35,789 nucleotides of DNA from Candidatus Methanoperedens sp. (GTDB taxonomy: Archaea; Halobacteriota; Methanosarcinia; Methanosarcinales; Methanoperedenaceae), in contig JAHFDG010000041.1 in the NCBI GenBank assembly GCA_023249105.1, forward strand, positions 1 to 35,789. The letters are read 5' to 3'. The translations under genes and the position numbers were made by a program. Positions within the stretch are counted from its first letter, which is position 1. Each line of letters begins with the position of its first letter. Of the stretch, positions 7,988 to 35,789 are shown one piece after another. The notes beneath the pieces were generated by a model. It saw only the letters and a list, made by a program, of their open reading frames with translations. It searched no databases and was not told the origin of the DNA.

Positions 7988-10900
7988 ATGAATAATCCGG
8001 AAACCCTAAAATCCGAACTTATCAAAGCGCTTCAACAACTCGGTGTGCATGACCATCTTTGTTTGATTTATGAATCCCGTGAGGAACAGTTAGCTTCAGC
8101 CATACCATTCATAAAAATGGGATTGGAACGCAATGAACAATGCGTTTACATAGTTGATGAAAATACTGCACAGACTGTTTTAGACGCCATGCGTGCTGAA
8201 GGCATTGATACTGATTCTGCAGTCGAATCCGGCGCGTTAAAAGTGATTACAAAGCGTGAGGCATATTTAATGCGGGGATACTTTGATCCCGATTTAATGA
8301 TTCAGTTTCTGAAAGAGGGGGTAAATTCTGCTAAAAGGGCGGGTTTTAAAGCCCTCCGAGTTACGGGTGAAATGACGTGGGCTCTCGGGAGCGAAACAGG
8401 TGTAGAGCGTTTGGTTGAATACGAGGCAAAGTTGAATTATATTATCCCTGAATATGATATTTTAGCCATCTGCCAGTACAACCGCAACCGCTTCAAACCT
8501 GAGATTATCATCGACATAATTCGCACCCATCCACTGGTAATTTATGGCTCTATAGTGTGCAAAAACTTTTACTATGTCCCGCCGGATGAATTCCTGAAAC
8601 CGAAAGAACAGCAGATTTCTATGGAAGTGGCTAGGTTACTGAAAAATGTAATGGATTATGAACGTGCTGAGGAAAAGCTGCGTGAAGCATCGCAGTACAC
8701 CCGCAGTCTTATCGAGGTTAGCCTTGACCCGCTTGTAACAATTGGCAGGAACGGAAAAATCATGGATGTGAACCAGGCAACGGAACTTGCGACAGGTTTG
8801 CCCCGTGAGAAGCTTATAGGAAGCGATTTCTCGGATTATTTCACAGAACCCGATAAAGCAAGAGAAGGATACGGGCAGGTGTTCGAGAGGGGGTTTGTCA
8901 GGGATTACCCGCTTGCCATTCAGCATACATCAGGTAGAACAATGGACGTCCTCTATAATGCTGCCGTTTATAAAAATGAAGCCGGGGATGTGCAAGGCGT
9001 ATTTGCCGCAGCCAGGGATATAACAGAACGGAGGCGGGCAGAAGAGATGCGTTCCATGCTTGCATCCATCGTTGAATATTCTGAAGATGCCATAATCGGA
9101 AAGACTTTAGACGGCATAATCTTTAGCTGGAACCCTGGTGCAGAGAAAGTATATGGCTATTCTGCAAATGAGGTTATTGGCAAACCAGTCTCTATTCTTA
9201 TCCCGCCGGATCATTTTGATGAAATGCCAAAAATTCTTGAAAGAATAAAGCAGGGAGAGACAATAGAACATTATGAAGCAATACGGTTAAAGAAAGACGG
9301 ACGTCATATCGATATAGCTCTAACCGTATCTCCTATAAAGGATGCAGAAGGAAGGATAACAGGTGCTTCGACGATCGCTCATGACATTACAGAACATAAG
9401 AAAATAGAAAGGCAGTTACATGAAGCTTCATTATATGCCCGTAATCTTATCGAAACAAGCCTTGACCCTCTTGTGACCATAAGCCCTGAAGGTAAGATCA
9501 CGGATGTGAATAAAGCCACTGAATTAGTAACCGGAGATTCCCGTGAGAAGCTTATAGGCAGCGATTTCTCAGATTACTTCACCGAACCCGAAAAAGCAAG
9601 AGAGGGGTATGAGGAAGTATTCGAAAAAGGATTTGTAAAGGATTACCCGCTTGCTATCAGGCATGTCTCAGGCAGCATAACTGACGTTCTGTACAATGCT
9701 TCTGTGTACAGGGATGCTGCTGGCAATGTTGCAGGCGTATTTGCGGCAGCCAGGGATGTTACAGAACGAAAGCGGGCTGAAGAGAAGTTGCATGAAGCTT
9801 CATTATACACCCGCAGTCTCATCGAGGTAAGCCTTGACCCTCTGGTTACAATAAGCCCAGATGGAAAAATCACCGATGTAAATACGGCAACTGAGCAGGT
9901 TACCGGAGTTTCGCGTGAGCTGTTGGTAGGCAGCGATTTCTCTAACTACTTTACTGAGCCTGAGAAAGCAAAAGAGGGGTACAAACAGGTCTTCGAGAAA
10001 GGGTTTGTTAAAGATTATCCTCTGGCAATTCGCCACACATCAGGCAAAGTTACTGATGTGCTTTATAATGCATCGGTGTACAAGAACAAAGCGGGAGAAG
10101 TACTGGGTGTTTTTGCCGCAGCAAGGGACATTACCGAGCGCATGCGGGCTGAGGAGAAGTTGCTTGAAGCATCGCTGTACACCCGCAGTCTCATTGAGGT
10201 AAGTCTTGACCCGCTCGTTACTATCAGTAAAGACGGAAAGATTACCGATGTGAATACAGCTACCGAATCAGTAACCGGCGTTTCGCGTGAGAAGCTTATA
10301 GGAAGCGATTTCTCGGATTATTTCACAGAACCCGATAGAGCAAGAGAAGGATACAGGCAGGTATTCGAGAGGGGTTTTGTCAGGGATTACCCTCTTGCTA
10401 TCCGGCATGTCTCAGGCAGCACAGTAGATGTTCTTTACAACGCCGCTGTGTATAAGGACGCGGCAGGCAATGTTGCAGGCGTATTTGCCGCAGCCAGGGA
10501 TATCACAGAGCGTAAACGTTCTGAGGAAAAGCTGCGCGAGGCTTCGTTATATACCCGCAGTCTCATTGAGGTAAGTCTTGACCCGCTTGTAACAATTGGC
10601 AGGGAGGGAAAAATCATGGACGTGAACCAGGCAACGGAACTTGCGACAGGCTTGCCGCGTGAAAAGCTTATAGGAAGTGATTTCTCTGAATATTTCACAG
10701 AACCTGAAAAAGCAAGAGAAGGATACCAGCAGGTATTCGAGAAAGGGTTTGTAAAGAATTACCCGCTTGCCATCCGGCACGTTTCAGGCAGCACAGTAGA
10801 TGTTCTTTACAACGCCGCTGTGTATAAGGACGCGGCAGGCAATGTCACCGGCGTGTTTGCAGCAGCCAGAGATATTACAGAGCGAATGCGGGCTGAAGAA

Positions 10901-20201: not shown

Positions 20202-20363
20202 GATTTTTTTTCTCCAGACTTATGTTGTTAGATATGCGTGTGAATATACAAATAAATAACGATGGATAAAATATTGGGAATGTTGATAAGCTAACTCTGA
20301 CTTTGAGAAGTGTCTAAAAAATGCTGAGGTGTTATAATAGTAAAAAAAGAATAGTAATAAGTG

Positions 20364-20447
20364 AGCACAGCATCTTCCCGCCCTTCCCGATAGTTCGCAC
20401 ATCTATAGTACAATGCAGAACGTGGGCGGACTTAACTGCCCTGTTCG
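20364..20447 (-). pseudogene. Truncated second copy of 5S rRNA (3' part only)
   Basis: On the minus strand this segment matches the last two thirds of the complete 5S gene at 21060-21184, with about 84% identity by eye over some 90 positions, including landmarks such as AGTTAAG and GCATTGTACT. Similarity extends a few bases past the 3' end (GCTTACTTATT versus GCTCACTTATT). The 5' third is missing: it stops being similar about 15 bases from the stop of the RelE-like toxin pseudogene. Its CCCGAAC loop is nearer the general archaeal 5S consensus than the complete copy, so it may derive from a different rRNA operon. A T-rich run follows it, like a retained terminator. Confidence 0.75.
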
Positions 20448-20460
20448 GGATAAATCCACC

Positions 20461-20776
20461 TCAATTAAGTTCCCACTCTTTGCGAACCGCTTTATTCATC
20501 TCACGGGCACCATGCACCACAGCAAGTATCTCAACATCCTCGCTACCTTCTACAAGCCGATAAACGATTCTGTAATTCTGGTAAACAACCTCTCTGAATC
20601 CATAATCTTCAAGTTCCAACTATGCGCCCGCAGCGAGGCATTTGCCCGAGTTTTGCTGTTGCTCTGATAAGAGATTTTATGAAACGTGCGGCATAAGTTT
20701 TTGAGTCTTTAGCAATATAATCATGAATCGCCTGCAGATTGCTGCTTGCCTTTTCTGTCCATCTTACTTTGCCCAT
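20461..20776 (-). pseudogene. RelE/ParE-type toxin gene, frameshifted
   Basis: The minus-strand frame from ATG 20776 reads MGKVRWTEKASSNLQAIHDY and continues through KSLIRATAKLGQMPRCGRIV, then meets TGA at 20609. A second frame continues ELEDYGFREVVYQNYRIVYR and ends HGAREMNKAVRKEWELN at 20461. Together they make a full RelE/ParE toxin of about 103 residues. The break is at about 20614-20620, where a family member would have a codon such as Pro (GTT-CCG-GAA); two bases seem lost. RelE/ParE toxins are mRNA interferases or gyrase poisons, so loss of function is expected. It starts 13 bp inside the antitoxin gene. A sequencing error is the alternative. Confidence 0.8.
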
Positions 20777-20949
20777 TGCTCGACCCTGTCAAGAAGCTCC
20801 TTGGTGGTCAGCAGCTTTCCCTTCTCAGCATCCTTAAGTCCATCAAGAACCTGCGCAACAAAGTTTATCTCATACATGATGTCTTCTAATGAACTCTCAT
20901 CAGGCAATCGTTTTATAGTTTCTATGGTTGCTTCTTTTAGCAGGGTCAT
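20764..20949 (-). CDS. RelB-like antitoxin of a RelE/ParE module
   Basis: A 61-residue protein with the pattern of short antitoxins paired with RelE/ParE toxins: IETIKRLPDESSLEDIMYEI, then ending LLTTKELLDRVEQWAK. Such proteins are partly disordered, bind the toxin and may repress the operon. A GAGGT eight bases upstream supports the start, and the toxin ATG lies in its last codons (13-bp overlap). The partner toxin is frameshifted, so this antitoxin may have no target of its own. It lies 110 bp downstream of the 5S rRNA gene. Confidence 0.78.
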   Translation of the reverse strand: MTLLKEATIETIKRLPDESSLEDIMYEINFVAQVLDGLKDAEKGKLLTTKELLDRVEQWAK

Positions 20950-21016
20950 TATTGATACCTCAGTATTCAGAATTTTTAAAGTAATTTAATGCTTGTTGTA
21001 TATAAGTTTGCCTCAT

Positions 21017-21056
21017 ATAAAAAATATCGAAAAAATGAAAAAATAAAGTGAAATAA
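21017..21056 (-). terminator. T-rich terminator of the rRNA operon
   Basis: Just after the 5S 3' end the minus strand reads several T-runs (TTTATTTTTTC, ATTTTTTCG, ATTTTTTATA). Archaeal RNA polymerase terminates at such oligo-T tracts without a hairpin. This is the natural end of the rRNA transcript. Confidence 0.7.
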
Positions 21057-21059
21057 GTA

Positions 21060-21184
21060 AGCATAGCAGCTTTCTGCAGTTCCCGAGAGTTCGCACATCT
21101 TAGTACAATGCAAAACGTAGGCGGGCTTAACTTCTGTGTTCGAAATGGGTACAGGTGTTGCCCCGCCGCTTTGGCCGCTATACT
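21060..21184 (-). rRNA. rrf: 5S ribosomal RNA
   Basis: About 125 nt on the minus strand with the usual 5S features: the terminal helix AGTATAGC / GCTATGCT pairs over eight positions (one G-U), the middle holds ACACCTGTACCCATTTCGAAC and AGTTAAG, and loop E/helix IV GTGCGAACTCTCGGGAACTGC. The ends are set from the terminal helix and may be off by one or two bases. It is the last gene of the operon, 46 bp after the 23S processing stem. The spacer holds an 8-bp inverted repeat TCCATCCA-T-TGGATGGA (21202-21218). Confidence 0.93.
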
Positions 21185-33269: not shown

Positions 33270-34502
33270 ATGGACATCCAAAAAATCCGCCTCGACTTCC
33301 CTGCACTCTGGAAGAAATGGAACGGCAAGTACCCTATATATTTTGACAACGCCTGCATGACCCTGAAACCAAAGCAGGTCATTGACGCAATGAACGAATA
33401 CTATACCGAGTATCCCGTATGCGGTGGTCGTTCCATTCACAAGATGGCAAAGAAAGTGGACGAGAAAGTGACAGAGGCGCGGGAGAAATTCCAGAAATTC
33501 CTGGGTGCATCATGTCCAGAGGAAATAATTTTTACGCGGAATACTACCGAGGGACTGAATCTCGTTGCCAATTCACTTGAGTTCAAAAAAGAAGACATAG
33601 TTCTTACCACGGACAGGGAACATAATTCAAATCTTATTCCCTGGCAGATACAGGCTCACAAGCGCGGGATAAAACACATGGTCATTTACTCAAATCCCGA
33701 TAATACTTTTAACATTCCCCAATTCGAGGAAATCATGAACAAGAACAGGAACGTGCGGCTTGTTAGCATGGTTCATACAGCGAACCTTGACGGCTATACC
33801 ATACCGGCAAAGGAGATTATCAAAATCGCCCACGAGCACGGCGCGCTTGTAATGCTCGACGGCGCCCAGAGTGCACCGCATAAGCCTGTGGATGTCAGGG
33901 CGCTTGATGTTGATTTCTTTGCTCTTTCAGTGCACAAGATGGCGGGGCCGACTGGCATGGGCGTGCTCTACGGGAAACACGACTTGCTTTCGGAGCTTTC
34001 GCCTTTCATCGTTGGCGGCGATACGGTTAGCGATACCACCTATGCTAGTGCAAAATTCCTGCCTCCGCCTGAGAAATTCGAGGCTGGCTTGCAGAACTAT
34101 GCAGGCATCATCGGTTCGGGCGCGGCTGTGGATTACCTGAATAATATCGGGCTATCGGATATCGAGGAGCATGAAAAGAGGCTGAATACGATTATTACCA
34201 GCGGGATAAAGGACATGCCGGGGCTTAAAATCATAGGCCCGCAGGAGCCGCGCATGAGGGGCGGCATCATCGCTTTCACGGTCGAGCTTCCAAAGGGCGG
34301 CGACGCCCACGACATAGCGCTTGTGCTTGATGAAACCGAGAATATAGAGGTGCGCTCAGGGGCATTCTGCGTGCACTCGTGGTTCAACTACCGCAAGTGT
34401 GATGCTGCGGTGCGGGCTTCGCTTTATTTGTATAATACAGAGGAAGAGGCACGGAAGTTTATTGATGTTCTCGGGAAGACGATTGGACTGTTTAATCCAT
34501 AA
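33270..34502 (+). CDS. SufS-like cysteine desulfurase (class V aminotransferase)
   Basis: A 410-residue PLP enzyme of the group II cysteine desulfurase type, which takes sulfur from cysteine for Fe-S cluster assembly. The PLP lysine is K223 in LSVHKMAGPTGMGVLYG, the PLP-phosphate site includes FTRNTTEGLNLVA, and the Asp/Gln pair is in MLDGAQSAPH. The catalytic cysteine is C367 in RSGAFCVHSWF, where SufS has RxGHHC; the His is replaced by Phe, so activity on another substrate is possible. A TATA-like AAATTTATATC 25-30 bases upstream and the lack of a Shine-Dalgarno suggest a leaderless mRNA. A second copy of its last 28 codons lies at 34994-35077. Confidence 0.88.
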   Translation: MDIQKIRLDFPALWKKWNGKYPIYFDNACMTLKPKQVIDAMNEYYTEYPVCGGRSIHKMAKKVDEKVTEAREKFQKFLGASCPEEIIFTRNTTEGLNLVANSLEFKKEDIVLTTDREHNSNLIPWQIQAHKRGIKHMVIYSNPDNTFNIPQFEEIMNKNRNVRLVSMVHTANLDGYTIPAKEIIKIAHEHGALVMLDGAQSAPHKPVDVRALDVDFFALSVHKMAGPTGMGVLYGKHDLLSELSPFIVGGDTVSDTTYASAKFLPPPEKFEAGLQNYAGIIGSGAAVDYLNNIGLSDIEEHEKRLNTIITSGIKDMPGLKIIGPQEPRMRGGIIAFTVELPKGGDAHDIALVLDETENIEVRSGAFCVHSWFNYRKCDAAVRASLYLYNTEEEARKFIDVLGKTIGLFNP

Positions 34503-34528
34503 ATAACGACTTTTTTACTGGATAGGTA

Positions 34529-34939
34529 CTAAACCCGGGTTTTGCTGATACCGAAATGGTTAAATTCGCCGTGATACTTTTTTTTGAGTTTAGTCAATAT
34601 TTTATACCACTCGAAGAGAAACAGGACTAATCCCGAAAATGCTATAAGTTCAAACATTTCATAAGTGGTAGAATCCGGCGCAAAGTCCTCTAAACCTTCA
34701 AACAATTCATGAGAAAGCATGAAAACCCCTGTAATGATTATAAATATGCTACTTCGAATGAAACTTCCTTTTTGCGAAATTATTTCATCCGCATTCAATG
34801 CTTCCTTTTGCAGGAATCTCCATGTCAGAGCTATCTGGATACCAAGATAAACCGTGAACAGGGAGAGTATTATTATAAGTGCTTGAATAATTTTAAATAA
34901 AGTATAATCGTCAATTATGCTTCCTAACAATCTATCCAT
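34529..34939 (-). CDS. Unknown membrane protein between the two desulfurase 3' ends
   Basis: A 136-residue protein with hydrophobic helices at about 15-40 (LFKIIQALIIILSLFTVYLG), 62-78 and 92-112, then a basic tail (KLKKKYHGEF). No family is recognised. It runs opposite to the desulfurase gene, ends 26 bp after that gene's stop, and is followed on the other side by the duplicated desulfurase end. Its lower GC content than the desulfurase gene fits an acquired insert. The upstream AT-rich stretch (34940-34985) may hold its promoter; no strong Shine-Dalgarno is visible. Confidence 0.65.
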   Translation of the reverse strand: MDRLLGSIIDDYTLFKIIQALIIILSLFTVYLGIQIALTWRFLQKEALNADEIISQKGSFIRSSIFIIITGVFMLSHELFEGLEDFAPDSTTYEMFELIAFSGLVLFLFEWYKILTKLKKKYHGEFNHFGISKTRV

Positions 34940-34985
34940 TAGATTTGGTTATGTTTTTACTTATTTATAAAAGTTATGTAATTTG

Positions 34986-35077
34986 TTGCGGTTTCGCTAT
35001 ATTTGTATAATACCGAGGAAGAGGCACGGAAGTTTATTGATGTGCTGGGGAAGACGATTGGGTTGTTTAATCCGTGA
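34986..35077 (+). pseudogene. Second copy of the 3' end of the cysteine desulfurase gene
   Basis: The last 28 codons including the stop (34994-35077) match 34419-34502 with 8 differences in 84 positions, and every one is silent: CTT/CTA, ACA/ACC, GTT/GTG, CTC/CTG, GGA/GGG, CTG/TTG, CCA/CCG, TAA/TGA. Both encode SLYLYNTEEEARKFIDVLGK followed by TIGLFNP. A few bases upstream (GTTGCGGT) also match if six bases are removed. The rest of the gene is missing, so this piece is not expressed as an enzyme. Confidence 0.92.
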
Positions 35078-35167
35078 AAATTCATAGAGTTTACTATTTT
35101 TAAGAAATCATTAACTGAAAAGAAAGACCAAAAGGGTATTATATTGTAAGTAAATATAGATTGAAAC

Positions 35168-35680
35168 ATGAGAACCAGTATTTTCATGAATTATTCGAGC
35201 TTATCTGAAAGTTTCAAAGATGATTTAGAGTTTTTATGGAACTTTCCTGAAAAGGAAAGGAGAGCGATTCTTCCATATTTAACAGAGATTTATAAGACAG
35301 AAACTGAGGCAGATCATGAAATTGCTCTTGACAAAACTATAAAAGAGATTGGTGGAAACGCAGAAGAAAATCTTAGAATAATTAGATTTCTTTTATACAT
35401 ATATCGTTCATGGAATCCTGTACAAGACACGCCAGCAAACTTCGTGAAGGATCTCGAAGACCTTCACATGATTCCTGTTGAAAAGAGAGAGGATGTTTTG
35501 GAGTTTCTTTTAGAATTTTTTTCCATAATTGAAGCAGATAACCCTCGTCGTTTAAAAAAAGCCCATGCAGGAATGATACTGCCATCTTTTATTGGTCTCC
35601 ATGCAATTGTAGAATTTCGTCCGATAATCAAACAACCTTTTGGATCTACTCTAAATACTAGTATAATGATTCCAAATTAA
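35168..35680 (+). CDS. Unknown helical protein
   Basis: A 170-residue protein rich in charged, helical segments (SESFKDDLEFLWNFPEKERR, EENLRIIRFLLYIYRSWNPV, KREDVLEFLLEFFSIIEADN). No signal peptide, membrane helix or catalytic motif is recognised. The C-terminal part (MILPSFIGLHAIVEFRPI) is more hydrophobic. ATG 35168 was taken; ATG 35186 is an alternative. No Shine-Dalgarno is seen, and the AT-rich upstream sequence contains TATA-like GTATTATATTG at about 35135. It lies beyond the duplicated desulfurase end, in low-GC DNA like the membrane gene before it. Confidence 0.6.
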   Translation: MRTSIFMNYSSLSESFKDDLEFLWNFPEKERRAILPYLTEIYKTETEADHEIALDKTIKEIGGNAEENLRIIRFLLYIYRSWNPVQDTPANFVKDLEDLHMIPVEKREDVLEFLLEFFSIIEADNPRRLKKAHAGMILPSFIGLHAIVEFRPIIKQPFGSTLNTSIMIPN

Positions 35681-35682
35681 TA

Positions 35683-35789
35683 TTACAATGACTCAATTCT
35701 TCCAGGCATTTCATCCATCTTGTATTTCCACTTGAAAATCACAGGCATTTTGTTGATATCATCAAGATATTGACATATGCGTTCAACCA
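35683..35789 (-). CDS. C-terminal end of an unknown protein, cut by the window edge
   Basis: A minus-strand frame is open from the window edge to TAA at 35683-35685, giving 34 residues that include VERICQYLDDINKMPVIFKW and end KMDEMPGRIESL. The amphipathic composition looks like coding sequence. It is convergent with the preceding gene, 2 bp from its stop. Too little is visible to suggest a function. Confidence 0.4.
   Translation of the reverse strand, partial: VERICQYLDDINKMPVIFKWKYKMDEMPGRIESL

Follow-up and report, generated by a model that had tools for sequence, protein, structure and literature searches.

Why the end of a protein-coding gene should occur twice, on either side of another gene and with nothing but silent differences between the copies, is the question raised by the cysteine desulfurase locus described here. 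The window analysed is a whole contig (C2, 35,789 bp) of a draft assembly of 134 contigs (genome G000), assigned from close matches to the genus Candidatus Methanoperedens, a methane-eating archaeon. The intact gene (33270-34502, forward strand) encodes a SufS/CsdA-like desulfurase of 410 amino acids (Pfam Aminotran_5, E=2.6e-111), which scores 420 bits (E=6.5e-126) against the NCBIfam SufS model TIGR01979, under the model cut-off of 475 bits. Its last 28 codons (34419-34502), the copy in use, recur on the same strand 575 bp away (34994-35077) with 8 of 84 positions different, and the repeat alignment reaches 34415-34503 and 34990-35078, respectively. Immediately to the left of the detached copy, a by-eye reading finds what is left of the codons that precede the duplicated stretch (34985-34993, forward strand), together with a 6-bp deletion that is seemingly common to the related genome G029. 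The two tails enclose an inserted cassette (34503-34984), in which an open reading frame on the reverse strand (34529-34939) specifies a membrane protein of 136 amino acids without a match over cut-off in Pfam, PADLOC or NCBIfam. Two sister genomes conserve it downstream of their desulfurase, homologues occur in many other members of the genus, and G000 itself has another copy on contig C116; the reading frame is judged from its conservation to be a real gene. Elsewhere in the window, internal repeats (8661-10899, 72-82% DNA identity) are found in a 1202-aa reading frame and apparently correspond to tandem PAS-type sensor domains.

Both desulfurase tails translate identically, as SLYLYNTEEEARKFIDVLGKTIGLFNP followed by a stop, and all eight differences are synonymous, the TAA/TGA stop codon included. 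Under a neutral model the probability of eight synonymous changes out of eight is 8e-6 to 6e-5, varying with the transition/transversion ratio (p about 1e-5). A simple local duplication in tandem, confined to this strain and with subsequent drift of the copied gene end, would account for the same orientation and the short spacing of the copies, but it is contradicted by this substitution pattern and by the greater closeness of the fragment to the desulfurase tail of the outgroup G021 than to that of its own gene, and we regard it as very improbable. The repeat described in the original prediction was thus reproduced by alignment and translation, and the silent-only differences bear out its reading that both tails derive from functional genes of different lineages, joined through recombination with a relative.

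The same locus in the sister genomes G018 and G029, which are about 91% identical in the desulfurase, provides a relative chronology. In both, the membrane gene occupies the corresponding position, within a cassette of 91-94% nucleotide identity; behind it come a decayed remnant of the fragment (the remnants being compared by eye) and then pantoate kinase. Because the membrane gene and the left junction of the fragment are common to the three genomes, the first insertion is older than their split, and the proposal that this particular strain newly gained or retained the membrane gene is not supported as it stands. The fragments of the sister genomes have lost their frame or acquired a stop codon, the trace in G029 displaying a stop codon and many changes, whereas that of G000 is nearly pristine, with 2 differences from the G021 tail versus 8 from its own gene. 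About 9 neutral changes, as estimated from third-position divergence, are expected since the split, and two or fewer have a probability of about 0.006. Since the G000 fragment is near-pristine and closest to G021 while those of its sisters have decayed, we infer that a second recombination probably took place later within the old fragment and renewed it; the different DNA found behind it today may have arrived in the same event. The view that one end is original and the other acquired is consequently too simple, and the expected relative, in which the desulfurase would run straight on into the sequence beyond 35077, has no clear example, the similarity extending only about 20 bp past the stop codon. 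The draft state of the assembly might suggest a chimera of two strains from a mixed sample; however, the junction and the cassette are present in the independent assemblies of G018 and G029, and similar structures are found in G016 and within long contigs, which leaves a chimera scarcely credible. More generally, independently assembled relatives also contain the left junction of the fragment, which makes an artefact of assembly unlikely.

Behind the fragment, a 170-aa reading frame (35168-35680, forward strand), for which Pfam and PADLOC searches gave no known family, runs at its 3' end into the end of a multicopy insertion sequence (35655-35785, forward strand). Of this element about ten copies with 97-98% identity exist, most of them at contig ends of G000. 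As the contig ends in this insertion sequence, the DNA following the fragment is visible only in part, and the far end of the insertion event in G000 is hidden by the contig break. A join between this contig and contig C21, which carries pantoate kinase, was considered and left unproven, the repeat families at the two ends differing in copy number and partners. In many members of the genus, pantoate kinase and its partner follow the desulfurase at a distance of no more than about 0.5-0.7 kb; the interval holds alternative cassettes in relatives, many members having either other DNA or pantoate kinase downstream. In G016 and G010 (L073 and L074, respectively), pantoate kinase is not downstream but inverted and upstream of the desulfurase, beside thiC. 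A conserved stretch of 190 bp before pantoate kinase was rejected as a part of the cassette upon finding that it contains a DUF3800-X RNA (RF02984). In G000 this RNA lies immediately upstream of pantoate kinase (L072:855-928, contig C21), and in G016 it lies in the desulfurase neighbourhood (L039:6374-6447), in both cases on the minus strand; in G011 a DUF3800 gene is found at this locus.

A second case at the desulfurase is found in G016, in which the gene is followed by a HicBA pair, a first fragment, a DUF433/truncated DUF5615 pair and a second fragment. The first fragment starts at codon 360, spans 154 bp and contains one frameshift, with a ratio of synonymous to nonsynonymous differences of 6:2; the second starts at codon 367, spans 136 bp and has a ratio of 9:1, its sole nonsynonymous change falling at a residue where the G016 gene itself deviates from its relatives. 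G010 harbors a similar HicBA cassette directly behind its desulfurase. Third-position identity between these two genomes rises from 61% as far as codon 351 to 83% from there to the stop, a change-point which is only moderately significant (permutation p=0.015), and hicB and hicA are 84-88% identical. Because the tail and HicBA are closer between the two genomes than the gene body is, the gene tail and the cassette appear to have moved together.

The duplicated-tail layout is general and not limited to the desulfurase. In a self-comparison of about 1.06 Mb, and then in one of about 1.45 Mb from three Methanoperedens genomes, with 0.4 Mb from two Methanosarcinaceae as control, detached 3' ends were also found for a LUD protein, LeuC/aconitase, ThiC, an Lhr-type helicase (twice) and TldD, to which inspection added tail duplications of rubrerythrin and 5S rRNA (the LeuC/aconitase and TldD assignments rely on Pfam matches, and those of LUD, ThiC, Lhr, CobB and rubrerythrin on by-eye reading of the protein sequences). 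Free 3'-end copies were located only downstream of their own gene and never upstream (five in G000, six in G016 and one in G001), and none was found in the 400 kb of the two control genomes. Free 5'-end copies in Methanoperedens, such as that of CobB, were found only upstream (two in G016 and one in G001), and one control genome had a small number of 5'-end copies, some of them upstream and others downstream. Synonymous differences prevail over nonsynonymous ones in LeuC (22:2), the first Lhr copy (10:3) and TldD (6:1); the silent-only pattern is nevertheless not universal, since in the LUD, ThiC and second Lhr fragments, which are mixed or decayed, nonsynonymous differences are the more numerous. 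The 5S rRNA case is a second instance of the layout within the window itself (20343-21182). The intact gene (21061-21182, reverse strand; Rfam RF00001, 91 bits) has downstream of it a detached copy of its 3' part and flank (20343-20447, reverse strand), 82% identical to 21038-21142, and between the two lies a truncated reading frame for a ParE-family toxin (20609-20776, reverse strand; Pfam ParE_toxin, E=5.3e-08); in G016 a full-length ParE is found between the 5S copies (contig C14, 13704-14542). Recombination with a related strain, as proposed in the original prediction, is therefore retained, but a single local event is not, given that the layout recurs at other genes.

In the desulfurase and the surveyed genes, a displaced copy of the target 3' end is present up to the stop codon, and the insertions have one homologous and one non-homologous junction, as judged from how the tails align and from the unrelated sequence at the left junctions. 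These arrangements bring to mind site-specific integration, a classic source of duplicated 3' ends that differ only silently, in which a small element would use the desulfurase 3' end as the attachment site of a tyrosine recombinase, its own tail restoring the gene and the original being displaced. The tandem accretion at the same gene in G016 is in accordance with such an element, and the DNA beyond the contig break of G000 could carry an integrase. However, the target genes are unrelated, the fragments at the desulfurase start at different codons (360, 367 and about 383), a 5'-end case exists, and no shared motif or crossover core was found across ten junctions. The cassettes measure 0.5-2.7 kb, and neither in complete inserts nor downstream of the desulfurase across the genus was a recombinase or integrase recognised, by eye and by Pfam searches of selected reading frames. 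A conserved DNA signal in the desulfurase tail was also considered as an attachment site and rejected, as synonymous conservation there shows no more than a mild increase, and other parts of the gene match it. Because targets, starts and junctions vary, site-specific integration fits a single locus but not the whole pattern, and we consider it an improbable explanation.

We hypothesize instead, and hold it to be likely, that the duplicated tail was left behind when a cassette was inserted at a gene end between strains, without an integrase, through one homologous crossover and one illegitimate junction. The donor DNA would consist of a gene tail and a small downstream cassette from a related Methanoperedens lineage, and would enter through a single homologous crossover within the shared gene end. 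The other end would be closed by an illegitimate junction, most simply if the fragment circularised and was then inserted by a single crossover, a documented fate of linear DNA in E. coli (PMC3240628). The gene body would thereby receive the donor tail and cassette, and the displaced tail, cut at the junction, would remain beyond the cassette. Both tails having been functional until the insertion, their differences would at first be silent only, the detached tail decaying later. At the desulfurase, the membrane gene would have been inserted before the split of G000, G018 and G029, and a probable second recombination would then have renewed the G000 fragment. No circle, donor plasmid or clean empty site was found, and a search for viral carriers with a degenerate tail pattern gave no match in 2.9 million viral contigs; the circular intermediate is a presumed step. 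A variant which dispenses with the circle is the replacement of one flank by homologous recombination, as in an intergenic swap of the minimal-mobile-element type, the fragment being left where the tract ended inside the gene. Given one illegitimate end it leads to the same product, and the variable DNA that separates the conserved desulfurase and pantoate kinase genes is in its favour, but an ordinary swap with two crossovers gives no duplicated tail and an illegitimate end is still required. Flank replacement and insertion of a circle are indistinguishable here, and we assign the former a low probability.

A further feature of these insertions is their cargo. In the sampled Methanoperedens sequence, toxin-antitoxin genes (HicBA, PIN, MazF/PemK, ParE, TumE, DUF5615 or MNT/HEPN) are present in most inserts bounded by direct repeats, with exceptions that include the membrane gene at the desulfurase, a subtilase, a papain-like protease and a pyridoxamine-oxidase-like gene. 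Independently of the surveyed insert loci, 30 HicA loci from six genomes were assessed for flanking direct repeats within 1.5 kb. Such repeats were found at 16 of the 30, as opposed to none of 30 ABC-transporter loci (p=2e-6), and, after one duplicate was dropped, at 15 of 29 HicA loci as opposed to 22 of 400 random positions (p=2e-10); for PIN loci the count was 6 of 30 (p=0.009 versus random positions). Repeat-flanked HicBA is not confined to Methanoperedens, since repeats were also found at 9 of 19 HicA loci of Methanosarcinaceae, a different family within the order (L273-L291), compared with 5 of 200 random positions. Many of the repeats flanking HicA are intergenic and not gene ends, and the link with toxin-antitoxin genes may consequently have more than one cause. 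Such cargo might guard repeat-flanked inserts against looping out by punishing their loss. We tentatively extend this into a broader proposal, which we rate as possible and not as probable, that toxin-antitoxin modules of Methanosarcinales spread as integrase-free cassettes, entering gene ends or intergenic DNA through recombination and leaving direct repeats derived from the target; such repeats would favour looping out, addiction would retain the insert, and repeat-flanked inserts would thus be selected as toxin-antitoxin modules. Among the titles and abstracts searched, none gave a direct precedent for such toxin-antitoxin cassettes with flanking repeats.

Little is understood of the means by which chromosomal toxin-antitoxin modules and other very small accessory genes move when neither a transposase nor an integrase is involved. 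Silently diverged gene-end fragments constitute a readable record of the donor lineage, the order and the rough age of such events, and the correlation with HicBA renders the idea that addiction protects unstable inserts directly testable. The interpretation of duplicated gene ends in metagenome assemblies is affected as well.

Integrase elements are known to reside in the 3' ends of protein-coding genes, as phage 21 and e14 in icd and SGI1 in trmE. As in the cases reported here, the insert sits at the 3' end, displaces the host tail and supplies a new one, with silent differences; in contrast, the Methanoperedens cases have many unrelated targets, a cargo of 0.5-2.7 kb and no recognised recombinase or fixed core. 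The minimal mobile elements of Neisseria are likewise varied small cassettes between conserved genes; they move through homologous flanks, as the present cassettes may do, but in Methanoperedens, an archaeal host, the gene end stays duplicated, which implies that one end is illegitimate. The toxin-antitoxin cassettes of Vibrio superintegrons resemble the present ones in being small and rich in toxin-antitoxin genes, some in repeat-separated arrays, whereas in Methanoperedens no integrase was noticed and the repeats are host gene ends that differ from site to site. A further likeness is found with homology-facilitated illegitimate recombination and the single-crossover insertion of circularised linear DNA, in which one crossover is homologous and end joining or circularisation makes the other junction (PMC3240628); that process was described in bacterial experiments, while here it is deduced from many natural archaeal loci with toxin-antitoxin cargo.
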